64,000 nucleotides of DNA. Origin: Acidobacteriota bacterium. GTDB lineage: Bacteria; Acidobacteriota; Holophagae; Holophagales; Holophagaceae. The stretch lies in assembly GCA_016213735.1 (NCBI GenBank), contig JACQZU010000012.1:1-64000 (forward strand), given 5' to 3'. Shown here in pieces: positions 16,162-28,743 of the stretch (its first letter is position 1; each line of letters opens with the position of its first letter). Made by a program: the position numbers and the translations under genes. The notes below the pieces were generated by a model. That model saw nothing but the letters and a program-made list of their open reading frames with translations. It had not been told where the DNA came from and did not search any database.

Positions 16162-16235
<74 letters not shown>

Positions 16236-16238
<3 letters not shown>

Positions 16239-16273
16239 AAGAAAAGGGGCCCAAACGGGCCCCTTTTCTTTGG
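16236..16273 (+). terminator. Rho-independent terminator after tRNA-fMet
   Basis: A perfect 17-bp stem (16236-16252 with 16257-16273) with an AAAC loop begins within the tRNA CCA end. It carries CTTTTCTTT in its 3' arm. Confidence 0.8.
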
Positions 16274-16377
16274 TAGAGAGAGAAGGGTGGATTTGGACCT
16301 GCGAGAAACTGCTGCGGCCCGGTAGGGCACAGGTGGAGGCAGTCCAGTGGACTGCCGGAGCCGTCGTGCCCGGGGCC

Positions 16378-16414
16378 AGCAGCAGGCATGGTTCAAATCC
16401 TGCCCCCGCTACCA
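16378..16414 (+). repeat. att-like repeat copy 2 (displaced tRNA 3' end)
   Basis: 16390-16414 duplicates the tRNA 3' end including CCA, without any tRNA 5' half. 16378-16409 is a 32-nt perfect match to the right-end copy at 28712-28743, including AGCAGCAGGCAT, which the tRNA itself lacks. A second hairpin terminator follows, as after the real tRNA. This makes it the best left border for the last-integrated element. Confidence 0.85.
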
Positions 16415-16664: not shown

Positions 16665-17372
16665 CTACAACAAGTCCTTTTCCAACCTGGACTTGCGGGC
16701 TTCCCAATCCGGCATGTAGCGCCTAAGTAGTGCGAAAAATTGGGGGCTGTGGGTCTTGTGAACCAAATGGCAGAGCTCGTGGAGAATCACGTATTCGATG
16801 CAGGCCTTGGGTACCTGAATGAGCCTGAGGTTGAGCGTCATGGTTCCTTTTCCGGACAAAGACCCCCAACGGCGCGTCATGGTCCGGATGATGATGCGCG
16901 GCTCGGAGAACCCTTTTCGAATAAAGGGTGACTCCAGTCTCCGAAGGATGTCCTGGAAATAGGCACGTGCACGGCGGCGGTACCACCTTTCCAGCATTCC
17001 CTTGACGTGCTCGCGATCGTTTACGCTCGGAGATGCGACTTCGATCCATCCCCGAGTCATGGTGACGCTGTGACTGTTGGCCTCCACCAGGCGCAAACGG
17101 TACTGTCGGCCCAGGTAGCGATGAGTCTCGCCACGAAGAAACTGGCGGGGTGGAGTCACTGAGCGGTTGCGGCGAAAGAAGGCAAGCTGCTTCCAGATCC
17201 ATTTCGCACGTAGGCGCACTTTTGCATCAACGGCATCCAGCGCCGTTTCTTCAGGTGCGATCACCTCGATTCGCCCGCCGGGGTGGACCTCAATCCCGAG
17301 GGTCTTCCTGCGTGCGCCGAAGCGCAACGCGTAGGTGACCGTCTTTTGGTCGATTTCAATCGTGCGCATCAT
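16665..17372 (-). CDS. YgjP-like (DUF45) zinc metallopeptidase
   Basis: A 235-aa protein of the YgjP/WLM-like metallopeptidase group. The C-terminal HELCHLVHKTHSPQFF contains HExxH plus a downstream histidine, and RRWGSLSGKGTMTLNLRL precedes it, as in the family. Such genes often sit at the end of type I restriction-modification operons, but their role is not settled. It is the last gene of the operon: the start codon (tandem ATG at 17372/17369) is 3 nt after the hsdR stop. No membrane segment or signal is visible, so it should be cytoplasmic. Confidence 0.85.
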   Translation of the reverse strand: MMRTIEIDQKTVTYALRFGARRKTLGIEVHPGGRIEVIAPEETALDAVDAKVRLRAKWIWKQLAFFRRNRSVTPPRQFLRGETHRYLGRQYRLRLVEANSHSVTMTRGWIEVASPSVNDREHVKGMLERWYRRRARAYFQDILRRLESPFIRKGFSEPRIIIRTMTRRWGSLSGKGTMTLNLRLIQVPKACIEYVILHELCHLVHKTHSPQFFALLRRYMPDWEARKSRLEKDLL

Positions 17373-17375
17373 GGC

Positions 17376-20300
17376 TCACACCACCAGGCGATGGCGGGCC
17401 AGAGTCATGGTCCTTTCGATGATCTCGTCCATCTCCTCCGGCGTCAGCGGAATGCCGCTGGCATCCTTCATCTCCTCAAAAAGGAAATCATCGATGGCGT
17501 TTTTGGTCTCCTTCTGGGCATCCAGATCGTCCCAGTAGTTCACCTTGGCGTGAGCCTTGAGTGTCTTGACCAAACTCAAAGCAGCTCCGGCTGTAAGAGA
17601 TTCAGCGCGAGTGGCCTCGTTAAGGTGCTTTTCGAGGATGGGCTTCAGGATGCCATACAGGGCAATGGCATCATCGTCTCCCTGAAGGTTGCTGGGAATC
17701 GCATCCGTTTTGCGATTCACCATCGCATCCCTAATTTCCAAGGCCTGGTTTAGGTATTCCAGATCTGAAATGCGCTGGGCCCTGAAGGCATCGATGGCGT
17801 CCTGAATAAGCTTCGAGAAACGCTCGAAGAACGCTGGATCCTGAGCCATCTGCTCGTGGATCGCCTTCTTCGTGGCATAGGCGATGGTATCGGCCTTGGC
17901 CGCAGTAGATCCGTGCCCCTGGTCTTCAAGAACTTGCTTCAGTGCTTGGCTATCGAAGATGTTGACCGGTTCGTTCAGCCTCACAACCTCGTTGGCCGTG
18001 ATGTGTGTATCCAAGAGCTTCTGAATTTTTGGCTCAAAGTCCCGGTAATCCACGGATTCGGCGTAGCGGCGTTGCACGGATGCTTTCAGGTCCTTGAATT
18101 TCTTCAAGTCCTCTTTGTAGGCTCGAACCTTGGCTTCGTTGGTTTCGGTGAGGAATTTTTCGCTAGAAAGCGCAATGGCCAGGGTCTTCGCGTAGATGCT
18201 GAGTCGACTGTAGAAGTCGATGCGAACTTCCTCGTCCTTCAGGAAGAGCTCAAAGACTTCCTCATCCTTGCGGTTTTTCACTTCCTTGAAGAGATCCCAG
18301 AGGTCGCCATGGCGCTGGGGAAGCTGCTTGACCTCCTCCTGAATGGAATTCAGTGCGCCTTGAAGGTCCTCTTCGTCAAACCCTTCGAGGCCCGAGTAGG
18401 CAGTCAAGGCTTTGTCCAGTTCGCCGAGGATCCCCCGGTAGTCGATGATGTAGCCGAATTCCTTCGGGTTGCCCCCTCGTTCGTCCTCGTACAGCCTGTT
18501 CACTCGTGCGATTGCCTGAAGCAGGGTGTGCTCCTTCAGGAGGCGGGTGAGATATAGAACGGTGTTTTTCGGTGCGTCAAAGCCCGTGAGCAGCTTGTCG
18601 ATCACGATGAGGATTTCGGGGGAGTCGCCAAACTTGAACTGGTTGACGATCTGCTTGTTGTATTCCTCCTCGCTTCCATAGCGCTTCATCATTTGGTTCC
18701 AGAAGGCAACCACTTCGTCGGTCGCCTCGTCGGAATCGACCTCCTCATATCCCTCCCGTTCGTCGGGTGGTGACATGATCACTTCAGAAGTGACCTGGCC
18801 GATCTCTTCCAAGTAAGCCTTGAACTTCAGCGCAGCGGCTTTGCTCCGGGCCACCAGTTGGGCCTTGTATCCCGTTCCCTGCCAGGATTCTCGGTAGTGT
18901 TCACTGATGTCGAAGGCCTCCATGTAGATCACTTGGTCAGTCTTGCTGAGCATTTCGGCCCGACTGTATTTCCTTTTCAGATCTGCTCTCTGGGCCTCTG
19001 TCAGGCCATTGGTATGACGCTCGAACCAGAGGTCAATCGCAGCCTTGTTCTGCTGCATTTCTACCAACCGAGCCTCATAGAGGAGGGGAACTACCGCTTC
19101 ATCGGTAACGGCCTGCTTGATGGTATAGGCATCAATCAGCCCACCGAACTTTGCAAAACTGTTCTTCTTTTCCCCCTTCATGAGAGGCGTACCGGTGAAA
19201 CCCAGGTAACAGGCCTTCGGGAAAAATCGCCGCATGTTGGCAGCCAACGATCCAAAATTGGTTCGGTGACTCTCGTCCACCAGCACAAAGAGCTCGGTGG
19301 AGTCGTCAAAGAAATCCTTTCGGGTATTCAAGGCTTTGTCGAATTTGTGAATGAGCGTCGTGATGACATGGGCCTTGTGGTCGGTCAGAAGCTCCAGAAG
19401 ATGGCGACCCGATTCGGCTCTCTCAGGAGCCAACCCACAGGCCGCGAAGGTGTTCCCAAGCTGCTTGTCCAGGTCTACGCGGTCGGTGACAAGAATGATC
19501 CGAGGGTTTGGAATCTCTGGATCCAACGCTAAGGCACGCGCCAACATCACCATGGTCAGTGATTTTCCGGACCCCTGCGTGTGCCAGATAATGCCGCCCC
19601 TGCGTTGACCCGTCTCGTCCCGCTCCTTAATTCGAGTCATGATCTTCTGAACAGCAAAGAACTGCTGATACCTAGCGATCTTCCGCAACCCCCCGTCGAA
19701 AACGGTGTACGCAAAGGCCATCCTCAGGAGGCGCTCGGGCCTGCAAAGGGCATATAGGGCGCGATCCTGCTCCGTGCTGGTGCGATCCTCCATGTAAGGA
19801 GTGATGTCCTCCCTAACGCCCAGATTCTTACAGGCCGTGTCGAATTGACTGGCCTTGACCGAGTCAGGTCCTGGAGGTTCTGTGAGTTGAAGGAGTTCGT
19901 TTTCTGGAATGGACTCATTCCAGGTAGCCCAGAATTTTTTAGGTGTACCAATTGTTGCGTATTTAGCGCTATTTTTGTTCACCCCAAAAACAGCCTGAAC
20001 ATAGGTGAACAATTTCGGGATGAATTCATCCCGTTGATTTCGGATCATCTGGGTAACAGCTTGTTCAAGGTCCTCTTTCGGCGACTTGCATTCAGTGACC
20101 GCAAACGGAATGCCATTAACAAACAGAACCAGGTCTGGTCGAACCGTTTCGTGGCTTCTTGTCCGTTCCACAGCGAACTCAGCCGCCACGTGATAGACGT
20201 TGTTTTCGGGATTCCGCCAGTCCACGTAGTTGAGGGTAAAACTCTTCTGGTCTCCTTCGATGGACTGCTCCAACGCTACGCCCAGGGTCAGCAAGTCGTA

Positions 20301-20588
20301 AACGGCCTCGTTGGTCTTGAGCAAGCCATCGTATTTGACGTTCTTCAGCCGTTGGATCGCACTTTGAATATTTTCTTCACTGAAGAGGTAGCTGCTGCCC
20401 TTGTGCTGGATTCGGTTCAGCTTCTTCAGTTGCTCTCGCAGGATCTCCTCCAGCAGCACCTGACTGAGCTTGCCGCCGCGTGCAGCTAGGGCCTCGGCTG
20501 GTGCGAGGTACTGGTAACCGAGGTTGATCAGCACTTGGAGAGCCGGGATCTGGGAGAGGTATTTCTCGTCGAAGCGGAAAGCGTCCAT
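17376..20588 (-). CDS. hsdR: Type I restriction enzyme R subunit (endonuclease/translocase)
   Basis: A 1070-aa HsdR. The N-terminal PD-(D/E)xK nuclease is visible as PD at 151-152 and ECK at 166-168. The SF2 motor follows with Walker A TQGSGKS (337-343), DESH at 438-441 and the motif III region LGFTGTPL. A C-terminal helical domain probably contacts the methylase. All key residues look intact, so cleavage after DNA translocation is expected. It starts 3 nt after the CD-NTase stop and is followed 3 nt later by ygjP, so it belongs to a single operon of six genes. Base composition is lower in GC than outside the island. Confidence 0.95.
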   Translation of the reverse strand: MDAFRFDEKYLSQIPALQVLINLGYQYLAPAEALAARGGKLSQVLLEEILREQLKKLNRIQHKGSSYLFSEENIQSAIQRLKNVKYDGLLKTNEAVYDLLTLGVALEQSIEGDQKSFTLNYVDWRNPENNVYHVAAEFAVERTRSHETVRPDLVLFVNGIPFAVTECKSPKEDLEQAVTQMIRNQRDEFIPKLFTYVQAVFGVNKNSAKYATIGTPKKFWATWNESIPENELLQLTEPPGPDSVKASQFDTACKNLGVREDITPYMEDRTSTEQDRALYALCRPERLLRMAFAYTVFDGGLRKIARYQQFFAVQKIMTRIKERDETGQRRGGIIWHTQGSGKSLTMVMLARALALDPEIPNPRIILVTDRVDLDKQLGNTFAACGLAPERAESGRHLLELLTDHKAHVITTLIHKFDKALNTRKDFFDDSTELFVLVDESHRTNFGSLAANMRRFFPKACYLGFTGTPLMKGEKKNSFAKFGGLIDAYTIKQAVTDEAVVPLLYEARLVEMQQNKAAIDLWFERHTNGLTEAQRADLKRKYSRAEMLSKTDQVIYMEAFDISEHYRESWQGTGYKAQLVARSKAAALKFKAYLEEIGQVTSEVIMSPPDEREGYEEVDSDEATDEVVAFWNQMMKRYGSEEEYNKQIVNQFKFGDSPEILIVIDKLLTGFDAPKNTVLYLTRLLKEHTLLQAIARVNRLYEDERGGNPKEFGYIIDYRGILGELDKALTAYSGLEGFDEEDLQGALNSIQEEVKQLPQRHGDLWDLFKEVKNRKDEEVFELFLKDEEVRIDFYSRLSIYAKTLAIALSSEKFLTETNEAKVRAYKEDLKKFKDLKASVQRRYAESVDYRDFEPKIQKLLDTHITANEVVRLNEPVNIFDSQALKQVLEDQGHGSTAAKADTIAYATKKAIHEQMAQDPAFFERFSKLIQDAIDAFRAQRISDLEYLNQALEIRDAMVNRKTDAIPSNLQGDDDAIALYGILKPILEKHLNEATRAESLTAGAALSLVKTLKAHAKVNYWDDLDAQKETKNAIDDFLFEEMKDASGIPLTPEEMDEIIERTMTLARHRLVV

Positions 20589-20591
20589 GTT

Positions 20592-21410
20592 TCAAGCCCT
20601 CAGCAGGTCGCGAACGGGCGGCAGGATGCGCATGAGGGTTGCTTCGGCCTCTACCGAACCGCCAAAACGCTCTTGGCTCTGTGCCGTCGATGCGAGGTGT
20701 TTTAAGCGGTTGACCGCATCCTGCTTCCATTGAGGTGCTGACCATCCAGCCTCTAACGATCTGGCAGCCTGAAAGAAGTAGTCTGCCAATTGGCGTGATG
20801 CAACCAGTCCAAGGAAACCATATGCCTGCCCAACAAGATGCTGTTCTAGTGCATAGGACTCGAAGGGGTAATTTGCTGTGGCGTTCCAATATTTCATGAC
20901 TCGGACCAGCGGCTTGATGAGGTTGCCATAGACCTGATTCGCGTTACTCAGCGTCTGGTTGAAGCCATTCGGGTCGGTGTCCTGCCATTTCTGAAAGCCG
21001 TAGCCCTTGCGGGGGATCTGAAGACAGTTAAGCCAGTTCCGAACCGCAGGAACCAACTCGAAGCGCATATGGTTGAGTTCCAGCACGACCGTCGGGTGAG
21101 ATTGCATCACTTCAGAGCGAACGTACTGAGCCTCTGCGAACCGACGTAGACGATCCAGGTAGGCCTGCGGTTGGAGTCCAACGTCGGCAAAGACGACCAT
21201 GTAATCAACATCGGATTGCGGATCCATCGAACGGGGCAGGATGGTTCCACGGCTAAAAGATCCGAATACAAAGTGTTGACCGATCTGATCGCCAAAATAA
21301 TTCGCTAGGCGGGTCTGTAGTGTCGTGATGGAACGGTGCACACTCGCCTTTTCCTCGTCGCGCAGGATTGCTTGGCTTGCGATGCCAGTGAGATAGCTAT
21401 TAGCAGTCAT
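20592..21410 (-). CDS. CD-NTase-like (SMODS-type) nucleotidyltransferase
   Basis: A 272-aa DNA polymerase beta-fold nucleotidyltransferase. The GS motif lies in HFVFGSFSRGT (G50, S51), the metal-binding pair in SDVDYMVVF is D67/D69, and the third acidic residue is E118 in MRFELVPAV. This arrangement, with the acidic residue just before VPA, is typical of the OAS/cGAS-like CD-NTases that make cyclic oligonucleotides in CBASS. The third position is Glu instead of the more common Asp. The ATG at 21410 lies 11 nt inside the SLATT gene. Its direct partner is a SLATT 2-TM effector. A plain tRNA-type or toxin NTase is less likely because of that pairing. Confidence 0.78.
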   Translation of the reverse strand: MTANSYLTGIASQAILRDEEKASVHRSITTLQTRLANYFGDQIGQHFVFGSFSRGTILPRSMDPQSDVDYMVVFADVGLQPQAYLDRLRRFAEAQYVRSEVMQSHPTVVLELNHMRFELVPAVRNWLNCLQIPRKGYGFQKWQDTDPNGFNQTLSNANQVYGNLIKPLVRVMKYWNATANYPFESYALEQHLVGQAYGFLGLVASRQLADYFFQAARSLEAGWSAPQWKQDAVNRLKHLASTAQSQERFGGSVEAEATLMRILPPVRDLLRA

Positions 21411-21909
21411 GGTTCGCCTTATCTGCGCGGTAGCTGGCCCTTCCACCATCGATATCTTGCTTTGCCAACTCGTAGTCACCACGTGCGATGGCCGGTGCCC
21501 GCTGATTCAGTTCGTCGCGTGCATTTGCGAGAGCGAACAGACGCGTCTTGGCTTCTTCAAGCGCCGTGCCTTCAAGTAGGCCGATCTCGCGAAAGATGCG
21601 CGTCTGATTGCGCAGAGACTGGTACTGACTCGCGACGGCTTTATGCATCTCCGCCCGCTCCGATGGCTTCAGAAACGTCAATACGGTAGTCAGCGCGGTG
21701 GATACCAGAGCAAGCGCACCTGCCCACTCTGGCTGGTCCTTGAAGGCAGCCGCACCGGCGATCGCCGCCGACAGCACGGCAGGTAGGCCTATGCATAGGT
21801 GATAGCGGCCCCAGCGCGCTCCCGCGTTGTAGTGCCCCTTGAAAGAATGCTCGGTGTCTTCCTCGATCCGGCTCGCCTCGTCAGCCAGTTTGGTAATGAG
21901 ATCGCTCAT
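21400..21909 (-). CDS. SLATT-domain two-TM membrane effector
   Basis: A 169-aa protein. An N-terminal amphipathic helix (about residues 1-25, SRIEEDTEHSFKGHY) precedes TM1 (about 37-56, CIGLPAVLSAAIAGAAAF) and TM2 (about 62-80). A conserved C-terminal helix bundle follows (EMHKAVASQYQSLRNQTRIF). This is the layout of SLATT domains, predicted pore-forming effectors that accompany SMODS or SLOG sensors. The ATG at 21909 overlaps the hsdS stop (ATGA), and the 3' end overlaps the CD-NTase start by 11 nt, so translation of both is coupled to the RM operon. Expected action: membrane disruption on nucleotide signal. Confidence 0.82.
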   Translation of the reverse strand: MSDLITKLADEASRIEEDTEHSFKGHYNAGARWGRYHLCIGLPAVLSAAIAGAAAFKDQPEWAGALALVSTALTTVLTFLKPSERAEMHKAVASQYQSLRNQTRIFREIGLLEGTALEEAKTRLFALANARDELNQRAPAIARGDYELAKQDIDGGRASYRADKANHDC

Positions 21910-23132
21910 GGCATTGCCTCCTTGGGGATGGGCAGTCGCCACTGGCCGGTGAGCAGCTTTTGCATCAGGCCGCGCTTCTGGGCTTTGATTGCTGCAACTG
22001 ACTGACCAAGCAGGTCGATCTCGGCGCGCAGGGCATTTAAGTAGCAGGTGATGGTGGATTGTTTTGTAGCATCCGGTAGGGGAATCGTGAGTGCCGCGAA
22101 TTCAGAGAAGGACACAGTTTCGCGGACGCTTCCCTGAGCACTGTTCTTGATGCGCTGGCGTGCCGCGTGTGAGTTCAGCCAGTGCATGAAATAGTCGGAT
22201 TGGATCTTGGCCGCGTTGAGTCGAAACACGACATACATCGGACTGAGTACGCCATCGTCCCACCCATCCAGCCGGGCAATGGAACCTACATTGATTCGTG
22301 ATGGGTTGTAAGCGTATTCCCCTCGGCGCACGACTTTATAATTGGACAGGTCCGAACTGGCGACGCGGCGCTCGAATTGATCTTCTGGCAGAACGAACCC
22401 ACGCGAGTTGGTTACGCTCAGCACACGAGCCTCATTGCCGCCGTGATTGCGTACCGAGACCTCCTCGGCAAAGCTGCGGACATGGGCGTGCGGGTGCTGG
22501 CCCCGACTGATCAGGCGAGAGAGTTCGTAGTTGTAGTGCCCCATCTTCGCCGCAATCAATTGCTCGCTCTTTTCTAGCGCTAGGTCCCAAGCAAGGATTA
22601 CTTTGGCAATGTATTTCTGTACAGGCTTGGAGTGAAGGACAATTGCCACCGCACGGACGTCATCTTGATTGATGCTCGCTTGCGCAACCGCAGGTTTTGC
22701 AACTTTGCGGAAATGGCGACGTGCCGGGCCTGCTTGTAGCACCGCAGCAACATACTCTGGAACAAGGGGGCATTCTTCGCTGATGCGTATTCGCATCATG
22801 TTTGACTCGAACACTGGGTATTCATGCATGAAAGGGACGAGCATGCTCTTCCCGATGTGGGACAGACTGTTTACGCGGTTAATGATGATGTCGTTTTCTC
22901 GGATGGCAAACTGGTCCCTCTCATAAGGGGAGAGGGAAACCCTGCTGAATGAATTCGTTGTCAGACGGCCATGATTGTCGAAATCGGTAATTCTTAGAAT
23001 CGGAATTCCGGCCCCATATTCATCAGAATGCTTATAGATGCCGTTTTGAAAACAGGAATCATCAAGCAACGCACCTAGCTTGGTATATGGCATCGAATTG
23101 CCTTGATGCGATGGAGGATGGACGTCGCTCAT
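21906..23132 (-). CDS. hsdS: Type I restriction-modification specificity subunit, two TRDs
   Basis: A 408-aa HsdS. The first target-recognition domain spans about residues 15-165 (IPILRITDFD, ENDIIINRVNSL) with a first central conserved helix near 170-205 (AKVILAWDLALEKSEQLI). The second TRD runs about 210-360 (RRGEYAYNPSRINVGSIARLDG), and the distal conserved helix is at 375-400 (YLNALRAEIDLLGQSVAAIKAQKRGLMQKLL). Each TRD reads one half of a bipartite DNA site; the sequence read cannot be predicted here. The start overlaps the hsdM stop and the stop overlaps the SLATT start, both by 4 nt. Confidence 0.92.
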   Translation of the reverse strand: MSDVHPPSHQGNSMPYTKLGALLDDSCFQNGIYKHSDEYGAGIPILRITDFDNHGRLTTNSFSRVSLSPYERDQFAIRENDIIINRVNSLSHIGKSMLVPFMHEYPVFESNMMRIRISEECPLVPEYVAAVLQAGPARRHFRKVAKPAVAQASINQDDVRAVAIVLHSKPVQKYIAKVILAWDLALEKSEQLIAAKMGHYNYELSRLISRGQHPHAHVRSFAEEVSVRNHGGNEARVLSVTNSRGFVLPEDQFERRVASSDLSNYKVVRRGEYAYNPSRINVGSIARLDGWDDGVLSPMYVVFRLNAAKIQSDYFMHWLNSHAARQRIKNSAQGSVRETVSFSEFAALTIPLPDATKQSTITCYLNALRAEIDLLGQSVAAIKAQKRGLMQKLLTGQWRLPIPKEAMP

Positions 23133-24688
23133 ACCCCCAGCTCCCTAAGGTGCTGCTTCATGCGGCTCCGCACCTCAGCTAGTTCGCCCTCCAGGCGCTC
23201 GATCTCCTGTTCGACGGCTGCGACGTCGATTTCTTCCTCTTCCTCGAAGGTATCCACGTAACGGGGGATGTTGAGGTTGAAGTCGTTGTCGATGATTTCC
23301 CTAAGGCTGGCGACATGAGCGTAACTGCCCACGTTCTGGCGGGTGCGGAAGGCGACGAGCACCTTTTCTATATGCTCGTCTAGCAAGGTGTTCTGATTCT
23401 TGCCGGACTGGTAGTCGCGGCTGGCGTCGATGAACAGCACGTCGTGGCAGGCCTCGCGGGTGCCCCCCTTTTCGCGAGCGCGATCGAAGACTAGGATTGC
23501 GACCGGAATGGAGGTGGTCTGGAAGAGATTGCCCGGCAAGCCGATGACGGCATCGAGCAAGTTCTCCTCAATCAGAGCCTGGCGGATACGGCCCTCTGCA
23601 CCACCTCGGAATAGCACCCCGTGGGGTACGACCACAGCCACGCGGCCTTCCTTTGGCAGCGCAGTTTCGATCATGTGGGTAATGAAGGCGTAGTCGCCCT
23701 TTGACTTGGGTGGCAGGCCGCGCCAGAAGCGGTTGTGGCGATCGGCTTCAATTTCTGCACTGCCCCATTTGTCGAGGCTGAAGGGTGGGTTGGCCACGAC
23801 CACGTTGAAACGCATCAGCCGATCGGCTTCCACCAGCGCCGGGCTATTGAGGGTGTCACCCCATTCGATTCGGGCCGCATCCTTACTGTGCAAAAACATA
23901 TTCATGCGTGCCAGAGCCCAGGTGCTACCGTTGGCCTCCTGGCCGAAAAGGGCGAAGTTGTTGCTTCCTTGCTGCTCCACCAATGCGGCGGCTTCAATCA
24001 AGAGGCCACCAGAGCCGCAAGCAGGGTCGCAGATTCGGTCGCCGGGCTTGGGCGCGGCCAATTGTGCCAGCAGCTTCGACACATGCTTGGGCGTGTAAAA
24101 CTCACCGGCTTTTTTGCCTGCATCGGAGGCGAATCGCTCGATGAGGTAGATGTAGGTATTGCCGATCACATCCTCAGAGACGCGTGAGGGGCGCAGGTCG
24201 AGCTTGGTGAAATCGCCAATTAGGTTCTCCAGACGACGATTGCGGTCCTTGGCCTTTCCGAGATTCGCCTCGGAGTTGAAGTCAATGTTGCGGAACACGC
24301 CTTCGAGCTTGGCCTTGTTGGCCTCCTCGATGTGGTCGAGCACGATGTTGATCAACTCGCCAAGGTTGGCCGCCTTGCGCCGCTCGTACAGGGCCTGGAA
24401 GCTGGCCAGGAAGCGGTCGGAGACCTGTCCGGTTTTCTCGTCCTTGAACTCGACATAGGGCAGGATGAAGCGCTCGCGCTCCAGCTTTCGGCGAATGCGC
24501 TCCTCGTTATGACCGTAATCTTTCTGATATTTGGCATAGTGGTCATCCCACTGATCGCTGATGAACTTGAGGAACAGCATCACCAGGATGTAATCCTTGT
24601 AGTGCGACGGATCGATGACGCCGCGAAAGGTGTCGCAGGCGGCCCATGCTGCGTTGTTGATTTCCTGCTGAGTAATTTGGTCGTTCAT
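23129..24688 (-). CDS. hsdM: Type I restriction-modification DNA adenine methyltransferase
   Basis: A 519-aa HsdM. The N-terminal helical domain (about residues 10-160) precedes the gamma-type N6-adenine methylase core: SAM motif DPACGSGGLL (221-230) and catalytic NPPF (300-303), with GEFYTPKHVSKLL before it. The C-terminus is a charged coiled coil (FEEEEEIDVAAVEQEIERL) that contacts HsdS. It is the first gene of the six-gene operon. The start at 24688 is preceded by GAGGA. The 140 bp upstream, between it and the DUF2130 stop, is the likely promoter site. Confidence 0.95.
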   Translation of the reverse strand: MNDQITQQEINNAAWAACDTFRGVIDPSHYKDYILVMLFLKFISDQWDDHYAKYQKDYGHNEERIRRKLERERFILPYVEFKDEKTGQVSDRFLASFQALYERRKAANLGELINIVLDHIEEANKAKLEGVFRNIDFNSEANLGKAKDRNRRLENLIGDFTKLDLRPSRVSEDVIGNTYIYLIERFASDAGKKAGEFYTPKHVSKLLAQLAAPKPGDRICDPACGSGGLLIEAAALVEQQGSNNFALFGQEANGSTWALARMNMFLHSKDAARIEWGDTLNSPALVEADRLMRFNVVVANPPFSLDKWGSAEIEADRHNRFWRGLPPKSKGDYAFITHMIETALPKEGRVAVVVPHGVLFRGGAEGRIRQALIEENLLDAVIGLPGNLFQTTSIPVAILVFDRAREKGGTREACHDVLFIDASRDYQSGKNQNTLLDEHIEKVLVAFRTRQNVGSYAHVASLREIIDNDFNLNIPRYVDTFEEEEEIDVAAVEQEIERLEGELAEVRSRMKQHLRELGV

Positions 24689-24828: not shown

Positions 24829-26835
24829 CTATTCTGACTGAAGGCTGGCCAAGCGGACGCTGCCGCCCTTCCCAAGGCCCAGGTGGATCTGGTTTTTCGC
24901 CACCAGCCTGCGCTTGGTCTCATCGTAGTCCTCCTCGCTGAGGCCAAGGACTTCGCGGAGGGAGATGTTTCCGGATTTGCCTCCAAATCCAGCCAAGGCG
25001 GCCATGAACTGGGACTCTCGCTGCGCACGCTCTGCCGCCCGGTCATCCAGCGGGTAGGCCTCGGCAGGAAGGAGCGGCTGGGGGTCAATGGCCTTGGGAG
25101 TGGCCCCTTCGTCGATCAGGGTGTCCACCACTGAACCGGCTTCCGCCACAGCTTCCAATTCCTTCACGCTGCCTTCGGAGGTTGAGAGAACCCGCACCTC
25201 GGCCCCGGCAATCCGCTGGAATTCAGCGTCAATGCCTTGCAGCCCGGTCATCGCTTGCGTCAGGAGCCTCTGGCGCTTGTTCCAGAGCTTCTCCATCGCC
25301 TTGCGCTCGTCGCACAGATCTTCCAGCATCTGGTTCCACGCCTGACTGACCGAAGTGACCCGGCTCCTGAACTCGCTCCCAGTCAGGTACCGATAGAGGA
25401 TGGCCATCTTCTCCTGCTGGTTTTCCGTCGACTTCAGAGCACCCGCCGTCTTCACCATCCCATCCCGAAGAAGGTGGGCCATGGGAAGGGCGTGAGAGAA
25501 GGCACACACCCAGACGCCGTCCAACTGCCCGATGCCAGCGAAATCCTTCGGCAGAGCCTGAGTCGCCAACGCAGGGACAGTCGCGTTTTCGCGGGTCAGA
25601 TCAGCCTTCAGCTTGCCAAGCCAGGAATCAGACCAGTTCTTGGTCCTCTTGGATTCCCACAGGATCGAGCCGCAATCGCGTCCATTATCGTCACGAACCA
25701 CTTGGAGGACATCAGCTCCATCCGCACCTTTGGCCACCTCCCGGATGAGATCCCTCGGGAATTCCCGGCGAAGCAGTTCTTCCAGAAGAATCTCCTGCGC
25801 CTCGCCCTGAGCCTGCTGGGAACCCTGCTCCATCTTCCGAGTAAGCTGCTCGATCTGCTCGCGGAGCTCGGCCATCTTGAGGTCCTTATCCTTGAGTTTG
25901 AGATCCATCCCCTCCTGAGCCTTGGCCAAAGCTTGCTGCCGGATCTGCGCACGTTCTTCGTCCAGGCGACGCGCAACCGAAAGCTCCAACTCTGCGGCCT
26001 GTTCCTCCAGGGCGTTCTTCGCCTTCAGGATCTCAAGCTCCTTCTCTTGGGCGGCCTTGAGCTTGGCTCGGGCCTCGGTTACCTCATCTTCCTTGGCCTT
26101 CATCTGGGCCGCAACCTCATCGACAGCCGCAGCACGAGCCTGCTTCGAGAGTACTTCACGCTCGGCAGCAAGCTGCTCGCGAAGCTTCGCCTGAAGCCCC
26201 TCCTCGGCCTTCGCAAGATTCGCAGCCTTCTCCTCAATCTCCTTTTCCCGCTTCTTCGCCGCCTCCGCCGCGCTTCGCAGCAGCGCAAGCTCCTCCTCCT
26301 TGGAAGCCAACTCCAGCCTGCGCAGCTCGTCTGCGCTTTCCTGAACCGCCTTCCTGGTGGCAGCACGTTCCTCTTCCAGCTTGCGCTGAAGGGTGAGTTC
26401 CTGGTTCGCGGCCTGCTCCTCCAGGGCGTTCTTCGCCTTCAGGATCTCAAGCTCCTTCTCTTGGGCGGCCTTGAGCTTGGCGCGGGCCTCACTCGCTTCG
26501 TCTTCCTTGGCCTTGATCTGGGCTGCAAACTCATCGGCAGCCGAAGCACGAGCCTGTTCTGCCAATTTCTTACGTTCAGCGTCCACCTGCTGGCGCACCT
26601 GGGCGTCCAGCTCTTCCTTGCTCTTTGCGAGTTCTGCCGTCATGCGGGCAAGCTCGGCTTCCTTTGCCGCCACCTGTTCCTTGGCCTGCCGCTCGACGTG
26701 CTTCTGGATGACAGTGCTCGCGTCGAAGACGGTGTGGCAGTTGGGACAGGGGATAGACATCAGCGCATTGGGGGTCTCGATCTGTTCGTTGGACTTGCTC
26801 GCCACGGCGCTCTGCTGCTTGGTCTGATTGTTCAT
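24829..26835 (-). CDS. DUF2130 coiled-coil protein with ExK nuclease-like core
   Basis: A 668-aa protein. The N-terminus has a zinc-ribbon-like CPNC (30-33). A very long coiled coil follows (about 45-345), containing a 65-residue internal duplication (94-158 and 232-296). The DUF2130 domain (about 350-520) has GRDCGSILWESKRTKNW, with D387, E394 and K396 placed like a PD-(D/E)xK centre. The C-terminal about 50 residues (GNISLREVLGLSEEDYDETKRRLV...LGKGGSVRL) look like a winged helix also seen on restriction-linked proteins. Nuclease activity is inference. AGAGGA supports the ATG at 26835. It lies just upstream of hsdM, 140 bp away on the same strand. Confidence 0.8.
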   Translation of the reverse strand: MNNQTKQQSAVASKSNEQIETPNALMSIPCPNCHTVFDASTVIQKHVERQAKEQVAAKEAELARMTAELAKSKEELDAQVRQQVDAERKKLAEQARASAADEFAAQIKAKEDEASEARAKLKAAQEKELEILKAKNALEEQAANQELTLQRKLEEERAATRKAVQESADELRRLELASKEEELALLRSAAEAAKKREKEIEEKAANLAKAEEGLQAKLREQLAAEREVLSKQARAAAVDEVAAQMKAKEDEVTEARAKLKAAQEKELEILKAKNALEEQAAELELSVARRLDEERAQIRQQALAKAQEGMDLKLKDKDLKMAELREQIEQLTRKMEQGSQQAQGEAQEILLEELLRREFPRDLIREVAKGADGADVLQVVRDDNGRDCGSILWESKRTKNWSDSWLGKLKADLTRENATVPALATQALPKDFAGIGQLDGVWVCAFSHALPMAHLLRDGMVKTAGALKSTENQQEKMAILYRYLTGSEFRSRVTSVSQAWNQMLEDLCDERKAMEKLWNKRQRLLTQAMTGLQGIDAEFQRIAGAEVRVLSTSEGSVKELEAVAEAGSVVDTLIDEGATPKAIDPQPLLPAEAYPLDDRAAERAQRESQFMAALAGFGGKSGNISLREVLGLSEEDYDETKRRLVAKNQIHLGLGKGGSVRLASLQSE
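26003..26066. repeat. 64-bp perfect direct repeat, copy A, inside the DUF2130 gene
   Basis: Identical base for base to 26417-26480, offset 414 bp (138 codons), so the frame is kept. It encodes the second copy of the coiled-coil duplication (residues around 256-277). Confidence 0.9.
26417..26480. repeat. 64-bp perfect direct repeat, copy B, inside the DUF2130 gene
   Basis: Partner of 26003-26066. The lack of any synonymous difference points to recent duplication or ongoing gene conversion. Recombination between the copies would delete exactly 138 codons in frame. Confidence 0.9.
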
Positions 26836-27096
26836 GGGAATCCTCTTGAGTGTTCTAGGGTTGGGCGTGCGAATTCATCGAACCGCACGGTAAGTGGTTG
26901 TTGGTTTGCTTGCTTGATTGGCGTACGGCTCTGCTGCCCAGATGTGGAATCGAGGGGAATCAGGGCAATCATCCGCTTGGGTTTGTAGTAGATGCTCAAT
27001 CCCGACATCGGCGGGCAGAGCCTCCCTGCGCCAAAAAGAAAAATCAGATTGGCGACGAGAACCTGTTAGTGAATCAACGAGGGGCGCTTTGCATCC

Positions 27097-27696
27097 TCAC
27101 CCTCCGCGATTCATTACCGAATTCGCCTTGCGATTGGCCAGATCGCAGAGCACAACATCACTCCAACGCCTTCGCAAGCGCGATAACTCTGCAAGAAGCT
27201 CCTGCTCACGGGCGGCCATCGAAGCCAACTCAGCGATGGCCTTCTGGATTTCAAGAGAAGGAACCGGAACTTCCAGCTTCTGAAGAGACTCCTTGCTCAC
27301 CATGCGTACTGATGTGCCTTCCGCCAATTCGGAAAGAGCAGCCTGCGTGGCGGGAGTATTGATCCACCATTGGAGATACTGCGGGACCACATCCCGTTTG
27401 GGGCGGACCAGTAGCAGAGGAGAGGCCAGAAGGACTTGGTCAATTTCCCGATCCACGAGGGCCGCAGTATTGATCTGTCCCCTGGAGCGGAATACCAAAT
27501 CGCCCTTCTGAAGCACCTGCTTGGGAGAGCCGAGGTCCGCCTGAATCGTCACCAGGGCTTCGTAGTGCAACCTGCTGTCCTCATCGATGTCCTTCATCTG
27601 GACGACCGACCAGTTACCTTCAGGAGCACCCTCGATACGCGACCGAAAGCTGTACCCCATTCGGATCTCGGCCACCTCTGCCAGCTTCCTGTCCAT
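27097..27696 (-). CDS. One-TRD (half-size) type I specificity protein
   Basis: A 199-aa HsdS-like protein with a single target-recognition domain: LAEVAEIRMGYSFRSRIE near the start, VLQKGDLVFRSRG, the family turn VSKESLQKLEVPVPSLEIQ, and a closing conserved helix with AAREQELLAELSRLRRR. Half-size HsdS proteins can dimerise to form a specificity module. The ATG at 27696 has GAGG 8 nt upstream; an in-frame ATG at 27732 lacks a good site. No dedicated hsdM or hsdR lies beside it, so it either pairs with the nearby HsdM/HsdR, works with DUF2130, or is left over. The stop is 261 bp upstream of the DUF2130 start. Confidence 0.8.
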   Translation of the reverse strand: MDRKLAEVAEIRMGYSFRSRIEGAPEGNWSVVQMKDIDEDSRLHYEALVTIQADLGSPKQVLQKGDLVFRSRGQINTAALVDREIDQVLLASPLLLVRPKRDVVPQYLQWWINTPATQAALSELAEGTSVRMVSKESLQKLEVPVPSLEIQKAIAELASMAAREQELLAELSRLRRRWSDVVLCDLANRKANSVMNRGG

Positions 27697-27984
27697 GTAG
27701 TAACCTCGTTTCTGGAAAACAACCCTCGACATCTCAAGGATAGGTCGGACGAGAATGCAGTCAAGTGCTGTAACGCGATTTTTGCAAAATTTTATAATTT
27801 GTTTATTATCAATATTTATATATTAGTTAATTGGGTCCCAGCCCGCCACCTTGGATGTCCTGCCCCCCAAATCCCTGGATCCGCGGCTGGAGGGGAGTTG
27901 GGATTGAGGAACCCCTGAGGACCAATACCGGCCCTCTTGCCGTGTGCCCTGCCCTCGTTACCCTCTCCCCTGCTGGTTTCAGGT
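27697..27984. other. AT-rich intergenic region
   Basis: No coding frame is convincing here. 27779-27833 is the most AT-rich segment of the window (runs such as TTTTATAATTTGTTTATTATC), well placed to hold the minus-strand promoter of the half-size HsdS gene. No paired -35/-10 with standard spacing could be fixed. Confidence 0.45.
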
Positions 27985-28356
27985 TCAATCATCCAATGGC
28001 ACGAAATCCTGGTCCTGCCATCGGGGCAGTCGAGACCGCTTAATAAGGTTGCGAACGCTCGGTTTCCAATCCGAAGGTTTACTAAGGAGAGCCTTCTCCT
28101 GAAGTTCCGGGGCCAAGAACGTCAGTCCTACCAGCATGGACACCCGTGGCTGGCTTATGCCCATCCGCCGAGCAGCGTCGCTGAAGTCCCGCACTTCTCC
28201 TGTCTCAACGGCCTTTACGATCCGGTGCCCAAGAGCCAGCGCCCGAGCCGCGGCGCTGACCTTTTCGGGCTTGGGCAGAACCTCAGGCGTGTGCTCCGCG
28301 AACCCGACGCACTTTCCCCGACGGACGCGGACCAAGGGCACCTCAATGGTCAGCAT
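27985..28356 (-). CDS. Small HTH protein accompanying the recombinase
   Basis: A 123-aa protein with a helix-turn-helix of ParB/KorB style in DFSDAARRMGISQPRVSMLV (about residues 64-83). The N-terminus starts MLTIEVPLVRVRRG and the tail is basic. The ATG at 28356 is preferred because GAGGAGGAGG stands just before it. It overlaps the end of the serine recombinase remnant by 14 nt, an arrangement common to large serine recombinase genes and their small accessory reading frame. A role in controlling excision or recombinase expression is inference. Confidence 0.62.
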   Translation of the reverse strand: MLTIEVPLVRVRRGKCVGFAEHTPEVLPKPEKVSAAARALALGHRIVKAVETGEVRDFSDAARRMGISQPRVSMLVGLTFLAPELQEKALLSKPSDWKPSVRNLIKRSRLPRWQDQDFVPLDD

Positions 28357-28723
28357 GGGCCTCCTCCTCAACAGGAAGATCAGCCAAGTCTCGGAACCTC
28401 ACGCTCAGCTTCCCCCTGAGCTGGTCCACACGGGCCTCTTCGACCATAAGTGCGATCAGGCGTCGGCGGTTTGGGAGGGTCAAGGCCTCCCACAGGGTCG
28501 TGAGATCTCCCCTCGGGACCACCAGGCCGAGGGGGGCAAGCTGGGCTTCCAAGAGGGGACGCATTTCGGGATCAGCCAAGGCTGCTTGGACACGCTCCAC
28601 CACGAAGGCCTCGATTGCTTCTGCGGGCAGCTGGCGCGTGGCGCAGACCTTCTTGCCCTCCTTGTCCCGCTTTGAGGGGGGGTATAAGCGGTCCATTCGG
28701 GCCCATGCGAAAGCAGCAGGCAT
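28343..28723 (-). pseudogene. C-terminal remnant of a large serine recombinase
   Basis: About 126 codons remain. The segment KRDKEGKKVCATRQLPAE, then AIEAFVVERVQAAL, and a closing RRRLIALMVEEARVDQLRG, followed by LSVRF, match the zinc-ribbon/coiled-coil end of large serine recombinases. The N-terminal resolvase catalytic domain with its serine is missing. Upstream, the frame runs into the att repeat and hits a TGA, so the gene was cut exactly at the right border of the island. The first ATG (28723) is formed by the repeat and is probably not a real start. Loss of the catalytic half would leave the island unable to excise by itself. Confidence 0.7.
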
Positions 28724-28743
28724 GGTTCAAATCCTGCCCCCGC
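28712..28743 (+). repeat. att-like repeat copy 3 (right end of island)
   Basis: A perfect 32-nt direct match to 16378-16409. It also supplies the final codons and stop of the APC permease on the opposite strand, and its ATG complement is the first start of the recombinase remnant. Confidence 0.85.

Follow-up and report, generated by a model that had tools for sequence, protein, structure and literature searches.

A type I restriction-modification operon with half-size and full-length hsdS genes and probable DUF2130 and CBASS-like cargo in an Acidobacteriota tRNA-Met island

The presence of cargo genes within type I restriction-modification (RM) operons is already published. The RRDM (RptR-RMS-DarTG-M48) island of E. 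coli is a type I RM operon in which the gene for the repressor RptR comes first, DarTG2 is carried as cargo and a gene for an M48-type metallopeptidase stands at the end; the site between hsdS and hsdR is termed a potential recombination hotspot in that work (PMC12255303). TgvAB sits inside the type I RM cluster of VPI-2 in V. cholerae (PMC11411939), and PrrC/EcoprrI and rlo inserts are found inside hsd loci (PMC2610378; PMC12707154). Variation is also described in the specificity (S) subunits: M.AhdI is a 2M+2S enzyme (PMC3874165), an engineered half HsdS (M1/2S) forms a dimer that is active as a methylase and becomes a nuclease when HsdR joins it, its target being palindromic (PMC6158711), and duplicated hsdS genes can switch by inversion (PMC7394358). 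Here we describe an operon in a 64,000-nucleotide stretch of DNA from an Acidobacteriota bacterium (contig JACQZU010000012.1, positions 1 to 64,000, referred to as the window), in which a half-size hsdS with one target recognition domain (TRD) and a DUF2130 gene precede the genes for a complete RM enzyme. The combination of a recurrent half-HsdS with DUF2130 cargo and a cyclic-oligonucleotide-based antiphage signalling system (CBASS) is new. Among the papers listed in the literature searched, from which subscription journals and preprints were excluded, no published conserved half-hsdS first gene and no CBASS inside a type I operon came up.

It is probable that eight genes on one strand form a single operon in a tRNA-Met island, where a type I RM chassis with two S genes and a YgjP-like protease holds the DUF2130 gene and a CBASS-like pair as cargo in two slots. 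The order on the minus strand is half-hsdS, DUF2130, hsdM, hsdS, SLATT, CD-NTase, hsdR and ygjP-like, so that all three type I subunits (HsdM, HsdS and HsdR) are encoded together:

27097..27732, minus strand: half-size hsdS with one TRD, operon gene 1 (211 residues; Pfam Methylase_S, 38 bits; one-TRD relatives upstream of hsdM; profile match to S subunit 1yf2 residues 24-209)
24829..26835, minus strand: DUF2130 protein of 668 residues, probable cargo between half-hsdS and hsdM (PF09903, 196.4 bits against a cut-off of 26.7; invariant residues; model and fold match)
23129..24688, minus strand: hsdM, N6-adenine methylase (N6_Mtase, HsdM_N, TIGR00497)
21906..23132, minus strand: full-length hsdS, 408 residues (PADLOC Specificity_I over residues 26-400; Pfam Methylase_S on the C-terminal half only)
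about 21400..21942, minus strand: SLATT two-transmembrane (2TM) effector, probable CBASS-like cargo between hsdS and hsdR (NCBIfam SLATT_4, 122.5 bits against a cut-off of 55; PADLOC 2TM Effector, 9e-66)
20592..21482, minus strand: CD-NTase (SMODS), probable CBASS-like cargo (PF18144, 8e-34; PADLOC Cyclase, 7e-103)
17376..20588, minus strand: hsdR (TIGR00348, 497 bits; HSDR_N; SWI2_SNF2)
16665..17372, minus strand: YgjP-like (SprT/M48-type) metallopeptidase, last operon gene (PF01863, 6.5e-58)

The likely start of half-HsdS is the ATG at 27696, which was the end coordinate in an earlier note on this DNA, and not the end of the open reading frame (ORF) at 27732, because the homologues in L105, L106, L140 and L149 begin near that position in the alignment (loci from elsewhere are given L numbers).

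The evidence for a chassis comes from relatives of the operon. Half-HsdS relatives were found by tblastn on plasmids and by searches of 297 Acidobacteriota genomes and 93 genomes of the same class, the window's own genome included. Twenty-two hsd loci were opened (18 plasmid and 4 Acidobacteriota, window excluded). Of the plasmid records that match half-HsdS, at least 12 of 69 (20 listed) were opened, and of those that match HsdM, 10 of 1890 (50 listed). In 20 of the 22 loci, hsdM has a one-TRD hsdS upstream of it, the exceptions being L185 and L135; the same holds for 8 of the 10 plasmid regions picked by HsdM similarity. The half-size gene overlaps hsdM or stops no more than 36 bp from it in 16 of the 19 loci measured (with the broken copy of L182 counted and L149 left out), the overlap being 4 bp in 7 of them; the spacing is wider in L141 (111 bp), L133 (372 bp, a small ORF included) and L184. 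After hsdM, according to annotation and gene maps, the relatives have hsdS, usually cargo, then hsdR and a metallopeptidase gene, which follows hsdR in all 17 loci with that end visible. The hsdS-hsdR slot holds cargo in 17 of the 20 loci where it is visible (none in L110, L135 and L185), the kinds being Shedu, HAD, DUF3800, DUF6119/TIGR04141, kinase, Abi, Fic and NucS-domain. The hsdM-hsdS slot holds RhuM in L103, L106, L132, L142 and L187, GIY-YIG in L183 and L186, and MazEF in L184. DUF2130 is found in none of the 22 loci. Sequence comparison shows the order of the genes, that the chassis recurs, and that the relatives opened lack DUF2130. No viral half-HsdS was found with a single-protein query, which reaches close relatives only.

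Two of these loci have unusual contents. In the half-hsdS RM operon of L142 (293-12829), the hsdM-hsdS slot contains RhuM and a short type II CBASS set (SAVED-HNH effector, DncV-like CD-NTase and E2-like protein), and the hsdS-hsdR slot contains DUF6119. On a Deinococcus plasmid, L184 (1-13046) has a short N6-methylase between the one-TRD hsdS and hsdM; its hsdM-hsdS slot is occupied by MazEF, and its hsdS-hsdR slot by Fic.

The earlier note, which was made from the window sequence, had presented the locus as a DUF2130 protein paired with a lone half-size HsdS beside a complete RM operon. The genes are real, while the pairing of DUF2130 with HsdS is not supported. The half-size specificity protein was correctly recognized, as a 211-residue, one-domain Methylase_S protein; it is not lone, being the first gene of a recurrent RM operon. 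The adjoining operon does have complete hsdM, hsdS and hsdR genes, and it is interrupted by the SLATT/CD-NTase pair and has a YgjP-like gene after hsdR, neither of which had been reported.

A number of observations weigh against a conserved chassis with DUF2130 as cargo. Gaps of 261 and 140 bp flank the DUF2130 gene, which makes its co-transcription with the other genes a presumption. The chassis loci came from the top of match lists. L185 and L135 lack half-HsdS, and the hsdR of L135 is broken; the half-hsdS of L182 is frame-broken, and the one-TRD hsdS of L184 is 7.4 kb from hsdM and matches the half and full profiles equally. The presence of half-HsdS tracks no clade of the HsdM tree (4 changes vs a shuffled mean of 3.8, on a tree in which 2 of the 4 outgroup branches are very long). 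DUF2130 adjoins other hsd operons in L045 and L143, and its separation from hsd genes is partly an effect of flank length, only 44 of the 80 genomic DUF2130 loci described below being 15 kb or longer. Signals in the DNA were set aside: a terminator scan was near chance (6 found vs 4.5 expected), and a promoter scan gave 3 promoter-like sites vs 0.8. The RNA fold of the gap between half-hsdS and DUF2130 has a z of -2.0.

Against S-subunit structures, the match of the half-HsdS profile covers one TRD and a single helix. In Pseudomonadota and Acidobacteriota alike, the reading frame is open, can be aligned and has a similar length. In 30 pairs of loci with HsdM at least 84% identical, the mean identity is 47% for half-HsdS (range 34-93) and 37% for HsdS (23-68). 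Divergence was followed block by block in 12 of the 30 pairs. In these, the full HsdS is a mosaic, in which the first-TRD blocks are mostly 7-30% identical, the conserved-region block is 47-77%, and the second TRD is low in some pairs and 60-87% in others. The blocks of half-HsdS are 20-67% identical in the same 12 pairs, with none of the TRD-swap mosaic that a freely exchanged specificity gene should have, and its C-terminal helix has no extra conservation (44.5% vs 46-57% in the rest). Judged from these alignments, half-HsdS evolves fast without re-assortment.

The leading idea for its function, to which we give roughly an even chance, is that half-HsdS is a second specificity subunit, the homodimer of which stands in for HsdS and provides HsdM/HsdR with a further target that is palindromic and bipartite. 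It leads because half-HsdS dimers are known to work, both in the natural 2M+2S enzyme M.AhdI (PMC3874165) and in the engineered half HsdS, which dimerized into an active methylase and was a nuclease with HsdR (PMC6158711). It also suits a protein that consists of a TRD and one helix and is encoded close to hsdM. The even divergence along the protein (mean 47% at the HsdM identities given above), with no sign of TRD replacement, and the ordinary conservation of the C-terminal helix both argue against it. The earlier note had offered a second specificity as one possibility, and this is still plausible from the closeness of the genes and the engineered dimers (PMC6158711), less so from the missing TRD-exchange mosaic.

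Since half-HsdS is fast evolving but not re-assorted, a role in regulation or as a partner has to be taken seriously as an alternative, although we consider it appreciably less probable. Half-HsdS would then be a dedicated partner of HsdM and not a specificity subunit, for example a control or timing factor made ahead of HsdS and HsdR. This would fit its place as operon gene 1 in the relatives, its even and fast divergence, which is unlike that of HsdS, and the RRDM island, the first gene of which encodes the repressor RptR (PMC12255303), but is harder to reconcile with its clear TRD homology. An extension of this idea, which seems to us rather unlikely, is a type I RM chassis that has two S genes and offers three places for cargo (before hsdM, hsdM-hsdS and hsdS-hsdR), in which half-HsdS is an HsdM partner that reports RM status instead of a spare specificity, and the CBASS and DUF2130 cargo act when restriction is blocked. 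It is less likely still that hsdS was duplicated and half-HsdS is what remains of one copy as it decays. The frame-broken copy in L182 is what decay would produce, but position and length are conserved across Pseudomonadota and Acidobacteriota, and copies that are not members of the half-HsdS profile (L132, L187, L182, L183 and L186) match it at 1e-72 to 3e-23, better than the full HsdS of the same loci (4e-7 to 1e-19), with a narrow gap for L183 and L186.

A single-TRD S gene beside an M gene is a feature of type 1 1/2 methyltransferases; the two genes adjoin in the relatives and have DUF2130 between them in the window. The locus is not classed with these enzymes because a full, two-TRD hsdS is present at 21906-23132. 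Two PDB chains named Esub1 (8vsr and 8vsq, 198-206 residues) resemble half-HsdS, with a profile E of about 6e-12; no paper on these chains was found.

The N-terminal coiled coil of the DUF2130 protein contains an internal duplication with a shift of 138 residues (48 of 60 identical in the best stretch). Alignments were made of 12 DUF2130 sequences, of 6 of those 12, and of 29 out of 81. D375, E394 and K396 are invariant in the core, together with E348 in the preceding helix, in the 12 sequences and equally in the 29. A structure model of residues 301-668, made from 29 sequences, shows a core of the form alpha-beta-beta-beta-alpha-beta and, apart from it, a winged helix, with a mean pLDDT (predicted local distance difference test) of 88-97 in blocks of model residues 41-160. 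VIA-align matched the core (model residues about 38-164) to McrC (Z 10.9, root-mean-square deviation (rmsd) 3.3, 110 residues), Hjc (Z 9.2, rmsd 2.5, 92 residues) and Can2 (Z 9.1, rmsd 3.3, 115 residues), while the best match for the tail was Zalpha (Z 8.6, rmsd 1.5, 58 residues). Foldseek alone found no match for the model under E 0.001, and best VIA Z values of 7 to 8 are common without kinship, which counts against the assignment. Nevertheless, because the VIA matches combine with the invariant D/E/K motif, a PD-(D/E)XK nuclease fold is a well-supported prediction for the core, which has both the conserved D...(D/E)xK residues and the core fold of that group. The winged-helix tail is not a family trait: only one of 80 genomic relatives (L023) has it, and the others extend at most 32 residues beyond the aligned core.

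Of the features that the earlier note had given this protein, the winged-helix tail is present in the model. In its ExK-like core (D387, E394 and K396), E394 and K396 are indeed invariant, while D387 is not conserved and the third residue is D375. The zinc ribbon is reduced to a single conserved CPxC knuckle (C30, C33), with a four-ligand ribbon unsupported. A search of PDB sequences with the DUF2130 profile gave two matches at E 0.2, both spike proteins, which were judged to be chance coiled-coil matches. No family in PADLOC-DB 2.0.0 matched DUF2130 at E 0.001, and none in NCBIfam.

The neighbourhoods of DUF2130 were compared in 119 loci (80 genomic, 32 viral, 5 Acidobacteriota and 2 plasmid), window excluded, the 80 genomic relatives being the best 80 of at least 487 confirmed. 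Short acidobacterial loci (L002-L022) are outside the 119, except those fetched again at greater length as L143-L147. Any hsd gene is present in the fetched flanks of only 4 of the 119 (L044, L045, L096 weakly, and L143). A one-TRD HsdS beside DUF2130 was found in none of them, with profiles from this RM lineage, which a distant HsdS could escape, and with flanks that are often short. The nearest relative among the best 80, L023, is 58% identical and shares the C-terminal tail. A SNF2/DrmD-like helicase and a type III-like methylase each recur as neighbours in 13 of 80, and Res in 10 of 80; the full trio is present in 8 of 80, with the methylase match on the other strand in L089.

In L026, L032, L034, L035, L079, L082 and L095, the SNF2/DrmD-like helicase and a type III-like Mod-Res pair enclose or adjoin DUF2130, and some of these loci add SIR2, OLD- or SMC-like genes. 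It is possible that DUF2130, the helicase and Mod-Res form a multi-gene defence system of their own. In L145 (8844-15333) DUF2130 is part of a type III-B CRISPR locus, with a Cas_NE0113 gene on one side and RAMP/Cas10b genes on the other, and in L146 it follows a type III mod-res pair. DUF2130 relatives are also present on 32 viral contigs (L150-L181), where no hsd genes were matched in the fetched flanks. Because it recurs in SNF2-Mod-Res, type III-B and mod-res settings, DUF2130 is best read, from these gene neighbourhoods, as a defence-associated gene embedded in clusters of several kinds, and here as cargo.

The remaining proposal of the earlier note, that half-HsdS directs the DUF2130 protein, and so forms the targeting subunit of a DUF2130 nuclease in a two-gene system merely abutting the RM operon, agrees with the adjacency of the two genes on one strand in the window but is very improbable and largely refuted by the counts, since their co-occurrence, set beforehand as the test, was seen in none of the 22 hsd and 119 DUF2130 loci outside the window, half-hsdS adjoins hsdM elsewhere, and no hsd gene is present in the flanks fetched for L023, which has the same tail. 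The adjacency of DUF2130 and half-hsdS looks like an accident of cargo insertion.

The SLATT/CD-NTase pair (20592-21942) splits the RM operon between hsdS and hsdR, and comprises the CD-NTase and effector genes of a two-gene CBASS. A similar pair of SLATT and nucleotidyltransferase genes, with no annotated hsd genes, is present in 2 plasmid records opened out of 13 matched. Besides the window's own, a CD-NTase match at E≤1e-25 was found in 1 of the 297 phylum genomes searched.

The island, with its operon genes on the minus strand, lies between about 16.3 and 28.7 kb of the window, and its ends are marked by the following features:

16162..16238, plus strand: tRNA-Met; 20 bp of its 3' end, at 16214-16233, is the repeated sequence
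16378..16409, plus strand: left copy of a 32-bp direct repeat, terminating in tRNA-Met 3' sequence
28712..28743, plus strand: right copy of the 32-bp direct repeat
27985..28723, minus strand: two short ORFs at the right edge of the island, a possible serine-recombinase-like remnant by eye, unconfirmed, with no Pfam family over cut-off

The 32-base repeat is perfect between its two copies, and its 20-base core is present at 16214-16233, 16390-16409 and 28724-28743, with no other copy in the 3.59 Mb of genome sequence available. Because the operon sits between repeat copies, the whole set of about 12.3 kb probably moved in as a single element. The GC content at third codon positions is 60-75% in seven of the eight operon genes, CD-NTase being left out of the count; the two genes measured outside the operon, one value each, reach 89 and 95%. 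Within 16214-16409, the first copy of the tRNA-Met 3' end is separated from the second by a short stretch that may have been left by an earlier insertion. Matches to mir-9457 at the tRNA were rejected, being under the family threshold and on a hairpin.

Taken together, the genes suggest how such an operon might act. HsdM2-HsdS-HsdR2 would restrict unmethylated DNA in the ordinary way, and half-HsdS might form a dimer able to take the place of HsdS, giving an M2(half-S)2 enzyme that recognizes a palindromic split target. On the basis of its model, the DUF2130 protein may be a separate DNA nuclease that makes its own DNA contact through the winged helix. An abortive layer would be added by the CD-NTase, whose nucleotide signal would switch on the 2TM SLATT effector.

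The object of interest is the larger operon, rather than a gene pair. What appeared to be an odd pair of genes becomes a testable system, in which one HsdM is accompanied by a complete HsdS and by a recurrent half-size one. CBASS modules (that of the window and a different one in L142) and DUF2130 join the kinds of cargo found in type I RM operons, and DUF2130, which 3 papers of the literature searched mention once each, gains a predicted nuclease fold and a recurrent defence setting.

In comparison with known systems, the DUF2130 core resembles McrC, Hjc, Can2 and related PD-(D/E)XK nucleases in its predicted fold and D-ExK site, and differs from McrC, Hjc and Can2 in that DUF2130 has a long coiled coil and a winged-helix tail, and no credible sequence-level match in the PDB. 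Type 1 1/2 methyltransferases (M.AhdI and the engineered M1/2S) likewise have a single-TRD S that works with a separate M, as described in the accounts available of them (PMC3874165; PMC6158711), whereas the window operon also holds a complete two-TRD HsdS and HsdR. Inverting hsdS systems share the presence of more than one hsdS under one hsdM, but the genes described in the portion of that work considered here (PMC7394358) are two-TRD with inverted repeats, while half-HsdS has one TRD and no sign of exchange. PrrC and rlo are similarly toxic or nuclease cargo genes within hsd loci; they are anticodon nucleases, PrrC being silenced by the RM enzyme, and the sections of those papers on the inserts (PMC2610378; PMC12707154) describe no DUF2130, CBASS or half-HsdS. 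TgvAB is again a two-gene defence system inside a type I RM cluster; its cargo is a GmrSD-like type IV system, and the text available on it (PMC11411939) describes no half-HsdS. The RRDM island, as far as the available part of its description goes (PMC12255303), carries defence genes as cargo in the hsdS-hsdR slot and ends with a metallopeptidase gene, both of which are features of the window operon as well. It differs in having no cargo before hsdM in the part considered and in carrying DarTG2 instead of SLATT/CD-NTase, and the first recognized gene of the window operon, where RptR homologues were not searched for, is half-hsdS.

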